DNA from: Chitinophagaceae bacterium
GTDB lineage: Bacteria > Bacteroidota > Bacteroidia > Chitinophagales > Chitinophagaceae
NCBI GenBank assembly: GCA_947446645.1
Contig: CANFHA010000002.1
Span: forward strand, 124,001-188,000
DNA: 64,000 nt
Direction: 5' to 3'
In this document: positions 5,699 to 52,102 of the stretch, in pieces
Position numbering within the stretch: the stretch's first letter is position 1
Layout of the letters: each line of letters starts with the position of its first letter
Notes under the pieces: model-generated
Told to the model about the DNA's origin: nothing
Seen by the model: only the letters and a program-made list of their open reading frames with translations
Database searches by the model: none
Program-made: the position numbers and the translations under genes

Positions 5699-8137
5699 TT
5701 ATGCAGATGCTGGTAGTGAATCTTTTTTAAACAACGGATAAAAAGCGGCGATGCAAAGCAATATCAGCAAAATGCTGCTGACGAGTGCAATGGTCTTGCC
5801 TTTGTAAAAGCTGTCTGGCCTGAAGTGGAACTCAATATTATGTGCCCTTGCGGGTATCTTTATCGCCCTTAGTACATAGTTCGCACGCACTATTGGTGTC
5901 TCTTTACCATCTACAAAAGCTCTCCAGCCCTTTGCATAGTAAATGTCTGAGAACACCGCGAGACCTTCTTTTGAATTATTGGATGTGAACGCCAGGTCAT
6001 CAAGGCCATAACGAGCCAGCTTCACATAAGCGCTGCTGTCTTTACCAAATGAAGCACTGCCAACATCATTTTTAAATGTTTCCCGGATGACCGCTGTTTT
6101 CCTTGGGTCAAATGCATTTGGCACTACCGTGGTATCACCGATCGCCGGGGCATTCAGCCCATCCATTTCCTGGTCGGCGTTTGCAGCCCACTTTACTTCA
6201 TCCACAAACCATGCATTGCCGCAGGCAGTTGGGTTAGGTATTACGTGCGGTTCCCTTTTCTGGCCGCCAACGATAATGTACTTTGTATTGAGCATGTTCA
6301 GTACCTGGGCGTTAAATCCCCGGCTCATCTGGCGCTCTATAAGGTCCTGGTATATTTCCATCTTCGCCGGGTGGTATCCGCCCACACATTTATGGAAGTA
6401 AGCCTGCACAGCGTCATTGTAGGTGTCCCTGGAAATATCCAGCACACGATAATATGGGTCCGGGTCGCGAAGGATCTGCTTGTCTACATCTCTCGGTGTG
6501 AATTCAGACTCATATTCTGACGCATCGAGGTAGTTTTTTTCGTTTAGGTAGCTGTAAGAAACGGGGAGGAGGTCAATAACAAACAGCGCTCCAAGGCCGC
6601 CAATAAGCACACCCACCTTCACTTTATCTTTAATAAATGCCCACAGCAGGCCGGTTGCAATAAGAATGAATATTGCGCTCTTCAAACCGCTCAACATAGC
6701 CAGGGAAGCGCGATCCTCTTTCAATAATTTTACTATTTCACCGGGAAGTCTTGCATCTTCTGCGCCACTGAAATTGAAGAAAATACTGCCTCCCACACCC
6801 AGGAGCACGCACAGCCCGGCGGTGATGCCTGCGGCTATCTTTACGTCGTTCCACATCTTTCCCGAATCAGATTTCCGGTCAATGATCTCCTGCACGGCCC
6901 AGATGCCAAGTAGCGGGAAGAGGAACTCAGGTATGACCAGCGCCATTGATGGGGTACGGAACTTGTTCAGGTAAGGAAGATGGTCAAACAGGAAGTAGTT
7001 GAGGGCTTCAAAATTTTTACCCCAAGAGAGCGCGATACATATAAACGAAGCAGCGGCGATCCACCACTTATGTGGAGAGCGCACCACCATGAGGCCGAGT
7101 ATAAACAGGAAGCAGATGACAGCGCCAAAATAAACCGGGCCGCCCAAAAATGGCTGAGGGCCCCAGTAAAGTGGAAGCTGATCAGCATTACTACCCACGG
7201 CCTCTGCGGTTTTAGGTGCTTTGTCCACCGGCTCTCCCGATGATCCGCCATAGAGGTAGGGAATCATCAGGCAAAAAGTTTCCCCGATACCGTTGCTCCA
7301 CCTGAATGCATAATCTTTATCAAGTCCCCCATTTGTTTTGCCTTTATCATGGCCGGAAAGCTCGCTGCCGCCACCCCTCATGGTTTCTTTGGCATATTCC
7401 TGGGTGGTCATTATGGATGTCATGCTGGGGCCTACACCAATAGCAGTAGCTGCCGCGGCAACAGCACAGGCAATTAAAAACTGTTTTATCCGGCCTTCTT
7501 TTATAGCTATGTAAAGCATGCCTACCCCAAAGCAGAAGAACATGATAAACGCGTAATAGATAACCTGGAAGTGGTTGTTGTCAAAAATCAGTGACATGGA
7601 AACACCTAGTAATGCGGCCCCGGTAAGCCATCTTTCCTTGAAAACAAGGTATAGCCCCGCTAATGCTGCCGGCAGGTAGGCCAGTGTCATCATTTTAGTA
7701 TCATGGCCAACGCCTATAATTATAGCGTTGTAAGACGAGAATGCATAAGCTATTGCACCCGCGATGCCCAGCCACCGGTTTACCTTAAGTACCCTGAGCA
7801 GCACATAAAAGCACAACATGGCTATAAAGAAGAAGTAAGCCGGTTTTCCTATTGTTTGCAGTACATTTTGCACATATGCTACATAGTTGGTGCTGGTAGC
7901 GCCCACGTATGTAGTGTAAGTAGGCATACCACCAAACATGCTGTTAGACCATAATACGTCTTTCCCGGTGGAATCGTGAAACGCCATTGCTTCGCGCGCC
8001 ATGCCCTGCCAGCTGATATTATCATGCTGCCTCAGCTTTTTGCCTTGTAACTGGGGGTAGCAGTAAGCCAGGGACAAAGCAGCGAAACAAACTATAGCGA
8101 GGATGTCAATCCTCATCTTCTTAAAATCTAATTGCAT
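5699..8137 (-). CDS. YfhO-family membrane protein
   Basis: This 812-residue integral membrane protein belongs to the YfhO family, large proteins with a GT-C-like helical region and a C-terminal soluble domain, linked in some bacteria to glycosylation of lipids or lipoteichoic acid. An N-terminal helix (about 8-30) is followed by a periplasmic loop with the motif RQHDNISWQG, about ten more helices, and a C-terminal domain containing VLDISRDTYNDA, YHKCVGGYHPAKM and YYAKGWRAFVDGKETPIVRANYVLRAI, typical of the family. A final helix lies near 785-805. It is the first gene of the operon with the acyltransferase, flippase and K+ channel. No enzyme activity can be assigned from the sequence. Confidence 0.85.
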   Translation of the reverse strand: MQLDFKKMRIDILAIVCFAALSLAYCYPQLQGKKLRQHDNISWQGMAREAMAFHDSTGKDVLWSNSMFGGMPTYTTYVGATSTNYVAYVQNVLQTIGKPAYFFFIAMLCFYVLLRVLKVNRWLGIAGAIAYAFSSYNAIIIGVGHDTKMMTLAYLPAALAGLYLVFKERWLTGAALLGVSMSLIFDNNHFQVIYYAFIMFFCFGVGMLYIAIKEGRIKQFLIACAVAAAATAIGVGPSMTSIMTTQEYAKETMRGGGSELSGHDKGKTNGGLDKDYAFRWSNGIGETFCLMIPYLYGGSSGEPVDKAPKTAEAVGSNADQLPLYWGPQPFLGGPVYFGAVICFLFILGLMVVRSPHKWWIAAASFICIALSWGKNFEALNYFLFDHLPYLNKFRTPSMALVIPEFLFPLLGIWAVQEIIDRKSDSGKMWNDVKIAAGITAGLCVLLGVGGSIFFNFSGAEDARLPGEIVKLLKEDRASLAMLSGLKSAIFILIATGLLWAFIKDKVKVGVLIGGLGALFVIDLLPVSYSYLNEKNYLDASEYESEFTPRDVDKQILRDPDPYYRVLDISRDTYNDAVQAYFHKCVGGYHPAKMEIYQDLIERQMSRGFNAQVLNMLNTKYIIVGGQKREPHVIPNPTACGNAWFVDEVKWAANADQEMDGLNAPAIGDTTVVPNAFDPRKTAVIRETFKNDVGSASFGKDSSAYVKLARYGLDDLAFTSNNSKEGLAVFSDIYYAKGWRAFVDGKETPIVRANYVLRAIKIPARAHNIEFHFRPDSFYKGKTIALVSSILLILLCIAAFYPLFKKDSLPASA

Positions 8138-47789: not shown

Positions 47790-47855
47790 AACAAAGCGCG
47801 TTAACTTATCAACTTATCATCTACCAACTTATCACTTGTCAACTTGTCACCTACC
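47790..47855. repeat. short degenerate tandem repeat
   Basis: The segment holds several imperfect copies of a CAACTTATCA-like unit just downstream of the GT2 gene. It is a low-complexity intergenic tract of the sort often seen in Bacteroidota; no function is evident. Confidence 0.6.
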
Positions 47856-48601
47856 TACGGATTCAGTTTCCCCATTTTAAAATCAAGCAGCAACTTCAGC
47901 GTTTGCTTCATGGTCTTCTGCACATTCATCTTGCTCTCGCCCTGCTTCAGGTCGTAGCGCAGTATCATGGGCACCTCGTTCATGGTGGCGCTCTGGCTGG
48001 CTACCTTCAGCAGCACCTCTACCATGCAGCCAAAACCCTTTTGAGTAATGAACTTATCACCGTAGTAGTTGATGGTTTTCCGCAGCATATCTACCCGGTA
48101 TGCCCTGAAACCGCAGGTGTAATCTTTAATACCCTCAAAGCCCACCAGCACCCGGAACAGGAAACCGGCAGCCCAGCTAAAGAACTTGCGCGATTTTTTC
48201 AATCCCTTTATCCTTGCGCCCGGCTGGTAGCGGCTGGCTATTACCAGGTCGCTGCCCTCGGCTATTTGCAGCGCCATACGCTGTATCAGGAAGGGCGTCT
48301 GGCTGTCATCCGCATCCATGGTCACTATTATATCCGTGTCTTTCAGTCCCTCCTGCGCTTTGCGCAGGCCCTTGTTTATAGCGCCCGCAAGGCCGCCATT
48401 GGGCTGAATGTCCAGCACATCTACCTTTATATCACCCTTAAAATTTCTTGCTATCTCCAGCGTGCGGTCTTTGCTGCCGTCGTTCACTACCAGCACACTT
48501 GCATCCCATTTAAACAGATTGTAAGCGTCATTTATCCTGTTGAGCAGGGGCGGTAAAGACTCCTCCTCATTATATGCCGGCAACACAATCCTTATATGCA
48601 T
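47855..48601 (-). CDS. GT2 glycosyltransferase, DPM1-like
   Basis: This 248-residue protein is a family 2 glycosyltransferase close to dolichyl/polyprenyl-phosphate mannosyl- or glucosyltransferases. The GT-A core starts RIVLPAYNEEESLPPLLNRI and has VVNDGSKDRTLEIA, the metal motif VTMDADDSQTPFLI and the later CGFRAYRVDML. It lacks extra C-terminal membrane helices. It may charge undecaprenyl phosphate with a sugar used by the two neighbouring GT39-like proteins, a known division of labour (inference here). Confidence 0.85.
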   Translation of the reverse strand: MHIRIVLPAYNEEESLPPLLNRINDAYNLFKWDASVLVVNDGSKDRTLEIARNFKGDIKVDVLDIQPNGGLAGAINKGLRKAQEGLKDTDIIVTMDADDSQTPFLIQRMALQIAEGSDLVIASRYQPGARIKGLKKSRKFFSWAAGFLFRVLVGFEGIKDYTCGFRAYRVDMLRKTINYYGDKFITQKGFGCMVEVLLKVASQSATMNEVPMILRYDLKQGESKMNVQKTMKQTLKLLLDFKMGKLNP

Positions 48602-48880
48602 GGTTCTCTATTAGCTGTATATATTGAATATCCTTATTTCAGGCCTTTTTCGATGCGCTAAAGTAATCTATTTATTTCTCTTCTTAAATAGAAATTGTGG
48701 GGTCGGTTATGATGTGATAATATCATTTTGTAGTCTCACACCAAATCACTAAATCAATAACAATTGATCCGCTATATGCTCATCATTAAGCGATTTTGTT
48801 ATCAGACTTAAGAGTCAGCTAATAAACTTCTTCTTTTGTATATTTACTTTGGATGAACCAATTTCATATAAAGTAGATTT
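48602..48880. other. intergenic region at the edge of the A/T-rich island
   Basis: About 280 bases between the divergent GT2 and ParB-like genes. Base composition turns visibly A/T-rich here. I found no gene, no strong promoter box and no terminator. Confidence 0.5.
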
Positions 48881-49218
48881 ATGTTTAAGGGAATGCTAAT
48901 AGGCACTGATGAAATAACCGACTATATTATTGAATTTTCTACTGGTTTTATTGATGTAGAGTTAGTTAGAGACTATTTTTACGATTGTAAAGCTGTCTTG
49001 AAAAAAGTAGATATTGACGCATTAATTTCTGAAAATGAAAATAATCACATTAGGGACGAAAAAAAGAAAAATTATATAAAAAATTACCGGTGGAAACTAT
49101 GCCTCCAATTGTAGTCGAAAATAGTAAAATTATTGATGGTAACCATAGATATAGAGTCGCAAAGGGAAATGGGCAAAAAGAAATATTTATTTACGAAATT
49201 CAAGAAATAGATACATGA
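48881..49218 (+). CDS. ParB-like protein, frameshifted at an A-run
   Basis: The first frame encodes MFKGMLIGTDEITDYIIEF to NYIKN and then runs to a stop after 77 codons. In the -1 frame from 49084 the reading continues LPVETMPPIVVENSKIIDG, then NHRYRVAKGNGQKEIFIYEI, a clear ParB/Srx-type nuclease-like domain with the IDGNHRY motif, up to TGA at 49216-49218. One extra A in the six-A run 49078-49083 would join both, giving about 112 residues. The stop of the joined frame overlaps the next gene's ATG as ATGA, strong evidence that the joined frame is the real one. Either a one-base sequence error, a decayed gene, or programmed -1 frameshifting on A_AAA_AAT. ParB-like domains bind or cut nucleotides; function here unknown. 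Confidence 0.75.
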
Positions 49219-49952
49219 AGCAACATGAAGCAGTAATTCAATCCATTGAACACTTGGGTGGAATTGCAACTTTGGGACAATTGAATAAAGAAGTTTTTAC
49301 AATAGAAGATTGTAATTGGAAAACAAGGACTCCATTTGCGAGTATACGCAGGATTGTGCAACTAAGACCGGAAATTTATAAAATCAAACCGGGTTTGTAT
49401 GGTCTTGTTAAAATGAAAAAGCAAAATGAAATCAATGGTATTATTGAGGAAACACGAAAAAATAGAAATTCTAAGATAGTGATTGATTTTAACCACAGTT
49501 ACTATCAAGGTATTTTGGTTCAATTTGGGAATTTAAAAAAATTAAACACATTTGTACCTAATCAGGATAAAAACAAACTTTTTCTTAATCAGCCTTTAGG
49601 CAATATCAGAACAATCAACCACCTGCCCCCTTTTTCTTACGAATCAATTATCCAACGAGCTTCTACTATTGATGTAATATGGCTTAATGAAAGAAATATG
49701 CCCCACTCATTTTTCGAGGTCGAACATTCAACTGATATTCAGAATTCTTTATTGAAATTCAATGATCTTCAAGATTTTTTTGTCCGTATGGTTATTGTTG
49801 CAGACAAAATAAGAAGAGCTGAGTATGAAACTAAGATAAAATACTCTTCTTTCAAACAGATACAACAAAGAATAAAATTTTTAGAATATGAGACGCTCAC
49901 AAAGCAATATGAGACATTGGTAGAGCAGCAATTTTTTGAAATTTTGGTATAG
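49215..49952 (+). CDS. HARE-HTH protein with PD-(D/E)XK-like domain
   Basis: This 245-residue protein has an N-terminal winged-helix region (about 1-65: AVIQSIEHLGGIATLGQL, TPFASIRRIVQL, PGLYGLV) resembling the HARE-HTH domain of restriction enzymes. The C-terminal part has IDVIWLN (Asp153) and SFFEVEHSTDIQNSLLKFND (Glu168, Glu170), resembling a nuclease-like family with an ExE instead of ExK. Then comes MVIVADKIRRAEYETKI, also family-like. I infer a DNA-binding, possibly DNA-cutting, protein. It is translationally coupled to the ParB-like gene through ATGA. A/T-rich codon use differs from neighbours, suggesting acquisition. The nuclease call is from pattern memory and moderate. Confidence 0.65.
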   Translation: MKQHEAVIQSIEHLGGIATLGQLNKEVFTIEDCNWKTRTPFASIRRIVQLRPEIYKIKPGLYGLVKMKKQNEINGIIEETRKNRNSKIVIDFNHSYYQGILVQFGNLKKLNTFVPNQDKNKLFLNQPLGNIRTINHLPPFSYESIIQRASTIDVIWLNERNMPHSFFEVEHSTDIQNSLLKFNDLQDFFVRMVIVADKIRRAEYETKIKYSSFKQIQQRIKFLEYETLTKQYETLVEQQFFEILV

Positions 49953-50112
49953 ATACAAGTTCGATAGTTAAAGGGAAAGAACTCACCGATTTTGGACAAT
50001 TTTTGCATTAAGCGCAGATTTTCTTTACCAGCGTGTGCTACCTAATTTACTTGACAAAGACAGGGTATCTGAGCTCTATGCAGGTCTTTATGAAAAGTAT
50101 AGTCTTAGCTGA
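49953..50112 (+). pseudogene. decayed 3' end of an unknown gene
   Basis: No intact frame exists, but one frame reads IVKGKELTDFGQFL and stops at TAA, and the next one continues ALSADFLYQRVLPNLLDKD, then RVSELYAGLYEKYSLS, to TGA at 50110-50112. Adding one T in the T run 50000-50004 joins them. The joined 55 or so residues look like a genuine protein end, not random sequence. The family is not recognised. It lacks a start and is interrupted, so I call it a remnant, or a second one-base sequence error. Confidence 0.45.
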
Positions 50113-50178
50113 CCTCAGCCACTGAACAAAAAAAAAGGAGAGAAAAAACGACCTGCCTATTTTACATGTATTATCAAT

Positions 50179-50514
50179 ATGATAATTGAGTGCCATGCAG
50201 AGGGACAAGTCTGGGAAATAAAAGAGTATTATTATACGACAACCTTTGGTAGTAGAGTTGCAGACGGTGTTTATGAAACGCTTTTGGATGGTTATGAACT
50301 TTCGGAAATTAGGAATCATTTAGATAGGCCAGTGAAGCATTATTTGATGGTTGACGACCATTTTACATGGTGGGTAAAGGGACGGTCGTATCTTTGCAGG
50401 CTATGTGATATTCTACATATGGGCTTTATCACAGAAGTTCTTTTTGGCAAAGAAGTAGTGGATAGACTTCCCATAATAGTGAATGGATGGATCGATAATT
50501 TGAACCCCGATTGA
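50179..50514 (+). CDS. small protein of unknown function
   Basis: This 111-residue protein has no recognisable family. It is soluble, with strands at the start (MIIECHAEGQVWEIKEYYYTTTFGSRVADG), a middle VKHYLMVDDHFTWWVKGRS and a hydrophobic-helical end (LCRLCDILHMGFITEVLF, then VDRLPIIVNGWIDNL). It contains a Cys pair in LCRLC. It lies in the A/T-rich island, downstream of the ParB-like/HTH pair, and could be part of the same cargo. Start at ATG 50179 is the first in frame. Confidence 0.55.
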   Translation: MIIECHAEGQVWEIKEYYYTTTFGSRVADGVYETLLDGYELSEIRNHLDRPVKHYLMVDDHFTWWVKGRSYLCRLCDILHMGFITEVLFGKEVVDRLPIIVNGWIDNLNPD

Positions 50515-50573
50515 TAAAACAGAATAATAAACCGGCTTATATTCCGTCTTTCATGATCCTATTTTCCACTAGT

Positions 50574-50606
50574 TGTTCCAGATGTTAGCTTTTGCGCATC
50601 TAAAAC
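50574..50606. repeat. palindromic repeat, copy 1
   Basis: GTTCCAGAT and ATCTAAAAC flank a core TTTTGCGC. The same arrangement recurs at 51080-51111. Copy 1 has an imperfect right arm. Confidence 0.6.
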
Positions 50607-50633
50607 TGCGAATAATACCGGTCTAAAGCCTGC

Positions 50634-50653
50634 CCTGAGCGTAGTCGAAGGGG
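50634..50653. repeat. 20-bp direct repeat, copy 1
   Basis: CCTGAGCGTAGTCGAAGGGG occurs identically at 51937-51956. Sequences of this kind (CCTGAG...GTCGAAGG) are widespread short repeats in bacterial intergenic DNA. Confidence 0.65.
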
Positions 50654-50854
50654 TATCCAATGAGCAGGCACCTAAATGATATCCAAAAGTCTAGCGGTCC
50701 CATACCAAAAAGCGCTCAAAAAATTGTGGATATCTTCTTCTCTGCCATGAACCTGTTTGGTACACAATTTGCGGTATTAGTCATGCCGGCTTGATCACGC
50801 AAAACCAACAGCAGCGCAGCGAAATGCAATTTTTTCCAGAAACCGGAAGTTAGC

Positions 50855-50900
50855 AGATGTCCCACACCTATCTTCCTCGTGCAGGTGGTGTGGGACATCT
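50855..50900. other. perfect 14-bp inverted repeat
   Basis: AGATGTCCCACACC (50855-50868) is the exact reverse complement of GGTGTGGGACATCT (50887-50900), with an 18-base loop. Flanking T/A-rich tracts occur on both sides (AATGCAATTTTTT and ATGCATTTTTTTT). No adjoining gene explains it as a terminator. Confidence 0.8.
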
Positions 50901-51079
50901 TGGCGAGTTGTAGAGACAAGATGCATTTTTTTTGAAATCGCGCCACTTCCGTTTCCCGCAAAAACCGGAAGAAATCCCGCAATTTCTCGCAACCTCATTT
51001 TTTATAACTATTTGATAATCATGCAAAAACATTAAAAGCACCACGAAAGGCCATTTTTCCGGAAAACCGGAAACCAGGT

Positions 51080-51111
51080 GTTCCAGAGTTTAGTTTTTGC
51101 GCATCTGGAAC
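51080..51111. repeat. palindromic repeat, copy 2
   Basis: GTTCCAGA and TCTGGAAC are perfect 8-bp arms around a core with TTTTTGCGCA. It is the better-preserved copy of the element at 50574-50606, about 500 bases away, in the same orientation. Confidence 0.65.
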
Positions 51112-51154
51112 AGCAAATAAAACCTCTATTTTTAGCAAACACAACCCCCCAAAC

Positions 51155-51778
51155 ATGAACGACAACTGGACAAACCGTTGGAACGACCGATACAGCACGG
51201 AAGAATTTGCCTATGGCAAGCAACCCAACAACTATCTGAAGGAACAATTAGAAAAACTACCCACCGGCAAGATCCTGTTTCCGGCAGAAGGGGAGGGTCG
51301 CAACGCAGTATATGCCGCCTGTCGTGGCTGGACGGCCTTTGCGTTTGATATCAGTGGTGCGGGCAGGAACAAAGCAATGCGGCTCGCACAAACCAATAAT
51401 GTCACCATCAACTACCAGGTCGGCGAACTGCAGGAGCTCAATTATCAACCCGGGCAATTTGATGCAATAGCCCTCATCTATGCACACTTTCCGGCAGCCA
51501 TCAAATCGTCGATCCACAAAGCCCTTGACAAATATCTGCGCAAGGATGGTATCATCATATTTGAAGCATTCAGCAAAAAGCATATTGACTACATAGCAAG
51601 GAATGAGAAAGTTGGCGGGCCCAAAGACGTCGATAGTTTGTTCTCAATTGAAGAACTGAAAACAGACTTTGCCAACTATGACTTCCTGGAAATTGCCGAA
51701 ATGGAAATAGAACTGAACGAAGGACAGTTTCACAACGGAACAGGTTCGGTAATAAGGTTTGTTGCGAGGAAAAGATAG
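51155..51778 (+). CDS. class I SAM-dependent methyltransferase
   Basis: This 207-residue protein is a Rossmann-fold methyltransferase of the thiopurine/tellurite-resistance (TehB-like) kind. It starts [24 protein letters not shown], a signature of that group, and the SAM loop is [20 protein letters not shown]. The acidic residue at the end of the second strand (FAFDISG) and the segment [12 protein letters not shown] follow. Such enzymes methylate small molecules; the substrate is unknown. It begins the return to core-like DNA after the island. Confidence 0.85.
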
Positions 51779-52102
51779 GATATGGCCTAAATAAAACGTT
51801 ATGGACAACGGACAGCACACCCCTAATCTTTATTCCCCAGCCCAATCTGGCCGCACGCTCTGCTGCGGGGCTAAATCGAGTTCCCCCACAATAACAGCGT
51901 AGAGCTATTCCTTGGCCGGCGGAGCCTTTGGCCAATCCTGAGCGTAGTCGAAGGGGCCTTTCTTTTTGTTACTTTCTGTTGCCTGTCCCGATGCATATCG
52001 GGAGCGAAGCAAAGAAAAAGTAAGGTAACGCAGTTCAGGTAACCCCTCCCTCTGCCTTGGAGAGTGTCGGGGAGAGGCCATTTTTATTCGTACTTTAGTT
52101 CC
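51779..52102. other. intergenic repeats before the MBL gene
   Basis: This 324-base gap holds the second copy of the 20-bp repeat (51937-51956), a hairpin TCCCGAT-GCAT-ATCGGGA (51986-52003) framed by pyrimidine-rich and purine-rich tracts (CTTTCTTTTTG and AAAGAAAAAGTAA), and a CCCTCTGCC...GGGGAGAGG inverted segment near 52043-52079. These are typical repeated intergenic palindromes. A box TACTTTAG (52091-52098) ends four bases before the MBL gene ATG and may be its -7 element. Confidence 0.6.

Follow-up and report, generated by a model that had tools for sequence, protein, structure and literature searches.

An A/T-rich island at a variable chromosomal site

The window analyzed here is a stretch of 64,000 nucleotides from a Chitinophagaceae genome, in which an intact restriction-endonuclease-like gene lies within an A/T-rich island, preceded by a ParB-like gene with an altered reading frame and followed by the remnant of another restriction enzyme gene (Table 1). 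The ParB-like and nuclease genes together have a G+C content of 30.7%, compared with 47.4% in the 2 kb to the left, 46.7% in the 2 kb to the right and 45.3% in the whole window, in agreement with the preliminary description of a region A/T-richer than both flanks. No other part of the window is as A/T-rich; among 630 sliding windows of 1072 bases, an equally low G+C content was reached by four, all starting between 48501 and 49001. The decayed genes and palindromes reported nearby were also found, in the form of the DUF7687 restriction enzyme remnant and one perfect 14-nt inverted repeat. Two 52-nt direct repeats are 81% alike and have similar copies in a congener locus, L155 (L-numbers are labels for homologous or congener loci, and G-numbers for genomes); judged by these copies, they are probably a dispersed repeat of the genus.

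Table 1. Positions of features in and around the island, counted from the first nucleotide of the window
Feature	Position	Strand	Basis or remark
Glycosyltransferase gene, left flank	47855-48601	-	
A/T-rich island	48650-50520		32.8% G+C; between the glycosyltransferase gene and the SAM-methyltransferase-like ORF
ParB-like gene, first part	48881-49066	+	frame of ORF 48881-49114; 44% identity over 59 aa to L044 homologue
A7G run	49059-49066	+	A AAA AAG in the zero frame; frame changes by -1 there or near
ParB-like gene, second part (LPVETMPPIVVENSKIIDGNHRYRVAK)	49066-49218	+	-1 frame, TGA end; 63% identity over 46 aa to L044 homologue
ATGA overlap	49215-49218	+	ParB-like stop and nuclease start
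Restriction-endonuclease-like gene, intact, 245 aa	49215-49952	+	PADLOC REase_II (E 2.8e-6), homologues, alignment, model
N-terminal HARE/winged-helix-like domain, residues 1-64	49215-49406	+	model (pLDDT 93), Foldseek
PD-(D/E)XK-like domain, residues 87-225	49473-49889	+	invariant residues, weak Foldseek matches
Candidate catalytic residues	D153 49671-49673; E168 49716-49718; E170 49722-49724; K181 49755-49757	+	
DUF7690-DUF7687 type II restriction enzyme remnant	49946-50514	+	three pieces: 49946-50011, 50017-50112, 50113-50514
52-nt direct repeat, copy 1	50568-50619		hairpin-like look
Perfect 14-nt inverted repeat, 18-nt loop	50855-50900 (arms 50855-50868 and 50887-50900)		
52-nt direct repeat, copy 2	51073-51124		
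SAM-methyltransferase-like ORF, right flank	51155-51778	+	label is our own reading

A search of 40 genomes, counting that of the window itself, located the glycosyltransferase gene of the left flank in 18 at E ≤ 1e-60. In the intervals fetched from the other 17, all congeners (~2 to 7.4 kb), tblastn found none of the nuclease, the ParB-like gene and DUF7687. The matches to both flanking genes are only ~257 bases apart in L157, and L153-L156 have other cargo in the interval before the right flank, which was not seen in the other 12 intervals. Given that none of the island's genes were found in the 17 fetched congener intervals and that the gap in L157 is so short, the island appears to be an insertion specific to this lineage, in a variable part of the chromosome. 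In comparison with L153-L157, this site, to the right of the glycosyltransferase gene, spans 48602-52064 of the window. The other cargo includes what we take to be a DUF433-like ORF in L153 and L155, a GIY-YIG-like ORF in L153 and an RHS-like fragment in L155.

The ParB-like gene changes frame and rarely accompanies the nuclease

The first gene had been described as a ParB/Srx-like ORF with an IDGNHRY motif, but the ORF that begins at 48881 encodes 77 amino acids, ends at 49114 and does not contain this motif, which is encoded in the -1 frame. The homologue in L044 is a 110-amino acid protein encoded in a single frame. Since the two halves of the window gene match the first and second parts of this homologue, the window gene is frameshifted, and the simplest reading of the change is a frameshift mutation or a homopolymer sequencing error. 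The ParB/Srx-like assignment itself stood as far as it was tested: the L044 homologue matches PHROG 620, "ParB-like partition protein" (E 2.8e-5), and the best PDB sequence matches of a five-row ParB-like profile are SbnI chains (E 0.028-0.077). Pfam ParB_N (PF02195) scored 12.7 bits on the second part of the window gene, below its cut-off of 26.3, and no Pfam family matched the L044 homologue; a structure model of the ParB-like homologue was too poor to be of use (pLDDT 53.5). As described, the stop codon of the ParB-like gene and the start codon of the nuclease gene share the sequence ATGA.

The two genes had been taken for a coupled pair, with the suggestion that their co-occurrence be counted across genomes. 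By tblastn, a ParB-like partner lies beside the nuclease in one of the 77 loci for which 400 or more upstream bases were available, namely L044 (L042, L056 and L065 were too short upstream for this count), and other ParB-like matches near the nuclease were at E 0.16 or worse. No partner was present in the stretches fetched around seven further full-length nuclease homologues (six from genomes of the phylum, one from a Halobacterium plasmid). The only one of 395 genomes of the phylum in which the ParB-like protein was found is the window's own, and on three Pseudomonas megaplasmids with ParB-like homologues neither the nuclease nor DUF7687 has a relative in the 4 kb fetched on either side. In these loci, homologues of the two genes almost never occur together, and the proposed paired system was not borne out. 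The accessible portions of the literature joining ParB, restriction endonucleases and HARE-HTH domains do not describe the pair. As part of the best explanation as a whole, the ParB-like gene is probably an occasional accessory rather than a required partner.

A nuclease family that Pfam and NCBIfam do not name

The second ORF is intact, at the length previously given, and the predicted catalytic residues D153, E168 and E170 were correctly placed; together with K181 they are invariant in all 76 aligned members of the family, as are H94, W35 and others. The gene hence offers what a type II assignment asks for on the nuclease side, a restriction endonuclease gene with intact predicted catalytic residues. 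Searches with profiles and structures, which the preliminary description had proposed, left the nuclease reading standing, in that the PADLOC profile "type II restriction enzyme" (REase_II) matches the C-terminal half of the protein (E 2.8e-6), but the window protein itself had no Pfam match at E ≤ 1, and NCBIfam yielded nothing meaningful. The family is without a Pfam or NCBIfam name, and several distant plasmid homologues are annotated "type II restriction endonuclease".

An AlphaFold2 model of the nuclease (pLDDT 93, pTM 0.88) has a winged-helix make-up at the N-terminus and an alpha/beta domain at the C-terminus. No solved structure was significantly matched by the nuclease sequence, and the model had no Foldseek match at E ≤ 0.001 in PDB or BFVD; the matches listed, all above that threshold, include BsaWI, Ecl18kI, EcoT38I, Card1/Can2 and Shedu as well as winged helices and unrelated folds. 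The highest Foldseek probability among them, 0.92 with a TMt of 0.60 but an E of 0.36, was for RNA polymerase subunit delta (8x6g chain E), which we take to be a HARE-HTH protein; hhalign of the nuclease against an approximate delta sequence gave no support, with a probability of 0.3%. The HARE-HTH family PF05066 was detected below its cut-off in two of the 76 members (best E 0.0028) and not in the window protein; against the Halobacterium copy it gave E 0.0026 over nearly the whole profile, with 18.5 bits compared with a cut-off of 25.9. From the model and these comparisons, the second protein is a likely, rather than proven, PD-(D/E)XK-like enzyme with a HARE/winged-helix-like domain first. 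The previous description as a HARE/winged-helix and PD-(D/E)XK nuclease in a defence-type island appears right as far as it was tested.

Matches to the nuclease at E ≤ 0.001 occur in 30 of 395 genomes of the phylum, the window's own included, and six of the others are full-length with 44-53% identity. A search of GTDB contigs gave 375 relatives, the best 80 of which are 55-70% identical and, as labelled, mostly from Bacteroidota but also from Treponema, Fusobacteria, Methylococcales, Acidobacteria and others; most of the relatives are labelled as MAGs. A full-length, haloarchaeal homologue with 44% identity is encoded at 6001-6729 of L031, on plasmid pSTJ001 of Halobacterium hubeiense, and is a candidate for cross-domain transfer. 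Viral contigs yielded one nuclease relative (L120; none in the single-protein scan) and no ParB-like relative. A phage origin was considered and rejected, neither the nuclease nor the L044 ParB-like protein having a match in phage records.

Methylase genes near the nuclease are frequently incomplete or missing

Hosts of type II restriction enzymes are usually protected by the accompanying methylase, and without it the enzyme should be toxic to them. Recurrent neighbors of the nuclease in the best 80 of the 375 loci are a D12 Dam-like methylase (M1, PF02086), an N6/N4 methylase (M2, N6_N4_Mtase, PF01555), an ORF similar to DpnD-PcfM (PF14207) and a small ORF that we call TDEG; D12 family membership is supported at E 1.5e-64 in L040 and, for the D12 type of L127, L042 and L044 (M1b), at E 7.8e-28 in L127. 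In three of the six full-length homologues from the phylum, the nuclease is followed by an ORF that we labelled phage-Dam-like methylase, which is split over two ORFs in L035. The TDEG ORF (motif YTDEGYTIAPN; L103:6754-7002 and others) follows the nuclease in many loci, even those without both methylases, and had no Pfam match below E 0.02 and none in PADLOC (E 0.01) or PHROG (E 0.1). In L117, a single ORF (6870-7891) joins a DpnD-PcfM domain to an N6/N4 methylase.

We assessed the methylases in the 59 loci whose flanks extend 1.5 kb or more upstream and 2 kb or more downstream of the nuclease (21 of the 80, L042, L044 and L049 among them, were dropped). Counting as full, generously, a query coverage of at least 0.85 for M1 and 0.67 for M2, both methylases are full in four loci, only M1 in two, only M2 in 16 and neither in 37; among the 20 loci with full M2, it is split over ORFs or frames in L060, L088 and L103 and is without its first part in L064, L070 and L074. 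Since these loci are the best-scoring 80 of 375, the search favors intact nucleases, and the counts do not measure how often nucleases are lost before methylases. Many of the loci with only M2 or with neither methylase have M1 or M2 stubs beside an intact nuclease, the short M1 stubs resting on tblastn at E ≤ 0.01, and a DpnD-like or TDEG ORF is kept in 15 of the 37 loci without a complete methylase. Full M1 adjoins the nuclease in six counted loci (L040, L052, L063, L064, L097 and L110) and in L049. D12 N-terminal stubs of varying length end just before the intact nuclease in L070, L074, L084, L087, L091, L103, L109 and others, while L071 and L072 keep both ends of M1 around a large internal deletion, the edges of which differ.

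Counts were also obtained for whole genomes, of which 50 of the 80 were searched, mostly MAGs and all bearing the nuclease. Full-length M1 was found in nine, and in the L094, L102 and L109 genomes it is, by contig number, on another contig than the nuclease. Neither M1 nor M2 was found in 31 of the 50, including nine of the 10 with NZ_ strain records; here M2 was taken to be present from about 60% identity upward across 85% of the query, with L054's own type added, G407 and G417 were counted as M2-positive though the match holds an in-frame stop, and the L044 genome was counted among those with neither though a truncated M1b-type methylase follows its nuclease. Full M1 and M2 and, elsewhere in the same genome, an M1 stub were found for L110, L102 and L109, which suggests two copies of the cassette in each.

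On a quickly built nuclease tree, the seven rows with full M1 require at least six changes, four of them forced by well supported branches; a count as low arose in 80 of 500 label shuffles, which leaves no clustering of full M1 beyond that of shuffled labels, and gain is indistinguishable from loss. L047, in whose genome no full M1 or M2 was found, is 92-93% identical to the M1-keeping L049 and L052. Among 22 chosen pairs, several with saturated dS, dN/dS was 0.046 for L104/L106 (dS 1.08), 0.039 for L100/L107 and 0.044 for L071/L072, all of them methylase-less. L104 and L106 share most of a 12.7 kb flank with no M1 or M2, which suggests that they share the loss of the methylases. Because this pair combines a low dN/dS with shared methylase-free flanks, the nuclease is strongly constrained by purifying selection in the methylase-less state, at least for L104/L106. 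By these comparisons, many of the nuclease relatives appear, like the window copy, to have outlived their methylases.

Probable remains of an L044-like cassette and the methylases of the window genome

The ORF remnant after the window nuclease has changed frame, acquired a stop and lost an internal segment but can be assigned (PF24736, E 5e-48; PADLOC REase_II PDLC03423, E 6.8e-39). It belongs with the DUF7690-DUF7687 enzymes, which are intact in L127 and L128 as proteins of 283 and 282 amino acids and have a divergent D12 methylase and a small HTH ORF as neighbors there. No literature was found under the name DUF7687. The order in L044 is a DUF7687 remnant (- strand) followed by the ParB-like gene, the nuclease and a D12 methylase (all + strand). 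L042, the nearest row to the window in the nuclease tree, has a D12 methylase of the same kind after the nuclease. The L042 and L044 methylases are 77% and 70% identical, respectively, to the L127 methylase but lack their first 24 and 44 residues, which were not found elsewhere in the loci, and the L044 methylase also runs off the contig end; given these truncations, no intact cassette of exactly the L044 make-up was seen.

For the window genome (98.4% complete, 32 contigs), a search with M1b, D12 and N6/N4 methylases found no close cognate methylase. The best M1b match had an E of 0.017, and the genome has one weak D12 match (25% identity to M1b) and one N6/N4 match of another kind; at this completeness and number of contigs, a methylase could be missed.

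An orphan nuclease and its alternatives

The ORF and invariant residues of the window nuclease are intact, its relatives adjoin methylases or what is left of them, the search of its genome gave no close cognate methylase and both neighboring genes are broken. On these grounds, we read the nuclease as an orphan restriction endonuclease of restriction-modification origin in a decayed restriction-modification island, and not as part of a ParB-nuclease system, with a probability of roughly three in four. A cassette like that of L044, with a ParB-like gene, nuclease and D12 methylase, would have entered the variable chromosomal site and subsequently lost the methylase. In the remaining enzyme, reading of the DNA target would fall to the N-terminal HARE/winged-helix-like domain and cutting to the C-terminal PD-(D/E)XK-like domain. 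The nuclease may have stayed because the host tolerates it, whether through a need for modified targets, through low or no expression or through an unrecognised protecting methylase.

Elements of this arrangement resemble several known systems. The relatives adjoin D12 Dam-like and DpnA-like N6/N4 methylases and DpnD-PcfM-like ORFs, as in what is accessible on the DpnII/DpnI cassettes of Streptococcus pneumoniae (PMC3573125), where "DpnA-like" is our reading of gene order and family. In contrast to DpnII and DpnI, the nuclease has no DpnII/DpnI Pfam match and has its DNA-reading domain first, and the window copy is without an adjoining methylase or DpnD-like ORF and has a ParB-like gene and the DUF7687 remnant instead. 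Full-length enzymes with truncated, frameshifted or missing methylases were also found among solitary restriction endonucleases by Ershova et al., 2012 (PMC3488263), who, in the sections available, report 74 solitary enzymes with a damaged methylase nearby and offer silence, hidden methylases and absent sites as explanations; the family described here is not named in those sections. Fusions of HARE-HTH domains to restriction endonucleases, for which discrimination of modified DNA has been proposed, are tied to Dnd or BREX in the consulted parts of two reports (PMC10853773, PMC12839542), whereas relatives of the window nuclease are tied to Dam/DpnA-like methylases. The m6A-dependent type IV enzymes of Helbrecht et al., 2024 (PMC11037411) similarly combine a winged helix with a nuclease and frequently stand alone, but the tested PD-(D/E)XK enzymes among them, according to the available text, have the order PD-(D/E)XK-wH and are about 58% identical to DpnI, and the window family has the reverse order. 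The same text reports that stand-alone winged-helix nucleases prefer m6A, that in 87% of their neighborhoods the three genes closest to them on each side include no methylase and that some neighboring methylases were inactivated by frameshift.

The comparison with these type IV enzymes raises the alternative, which we consider tentative and rather doubtful, that the nuclease is modification-dependent like DpnI, its N-terminal domain sensing a methylated base and the host being safe because it lacks the mark. The 37 of 59 loci without complete M1 or M2, 15 of which keep a DpnD-like or TDEG ORF, would fit such an enzyme, as would the 31 of 50 genomes with neither methylase (nine of 10 with NZ_ strain records) and the dN/dS of 0.046 in the methylase-less, syntenic L104/L106, and Helbrecht et al. 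(PMC11037411), in the part available, inferred the m6A dependence of winged-helix nuclease fusions from their stand-alone occurrence and then showed it. However, full M1 adjoins the nuclease in the six counted loci and L049 and lies on another contig in the L102 and L109 genomes, the domain order is reversed relative to DpnI, and L047 differs from L049 and L052 in methylase status at 92-93% identity, such that specificity would need to switch over short distances. Somewhat more plausible, though still short of convincing, is that the window gene survives as a relic, silent or hardly expressed, which is yet to decay, in line with the broken neighbors on both sides and with the unexpressed or inactive solitary enzymes, and the PaeR7I case, discussed in the available part of Ershova et al. 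(PMC3488263); yet, at 30% divergence from the nearest relative, neither the ORF nor any invariant residue is damaged, and nonsynonymous change is low compared with synonymous change (window/L042 dN 0.21, dS saturated), a comparison that cannot date the constraint to after the methylase loss.

Protection of the host by an unlinked or unrecognised methylase seems unlikely. The 57 separated restriction-modification systems predicted in the accessible text of Ershova et al. (PMC3488263), the full-length M1 away from the nuclease locus in the L094, L102 and L109 genomes and the D12 and N6/N4 methylases of the window genome point in this direction, but the latter two are no more than distant relatives of M1, M1b and M2. 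Highly improbable is a genuine two-gene system in which programmed -1 frameshifting at A AAA AAG yields the ParB-like protein. In its favor, this heptamer is correctly framed, the stop of the second part overlaps the start of the nuclease and L044 has the same gene order; nevertheless, the L044 gene is in one frame and has no such heptamer, and the RNA after the A7G run folds no better than shuffled sequences (z 0.62), leaving the heptamer present, without an accompanying structure and without conservation in L044. The programmed frameshift was thus not supported, and the two-gene system was rejected on the pairing in one of 77 loci together with the frameshifted ParB-like gene.

For the window, the orphan restriction endonuclease is mainly a correction, replacing a proposed new two-gene system. 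Solitary restriction enzymes are already known, and the part worth pursuing is the loss of methylases at the level of a family under continued selection on the nuclease. With methylases often truncated or absent and nuclease dN/dS near 0.05, the question is whether these enzymes are modification-dependent, silent or protected by something unrecognised, and L047 compared with L049 and L052 provides a ready set of close relatives without and with methylases. A bolder possibility, in which we have little confidence, is that the family, which is widespread, repeatedly shed the methylases of a Dam/DpnA-like restriction-modification cassette and that selection retained it for a modification-dependent (DpnI-like) defence in which the enzyme stands alone, in many cases with a small DpnD-like or TDEG protein; the window nuclease would then be one survivor with a ParB-like accessory.
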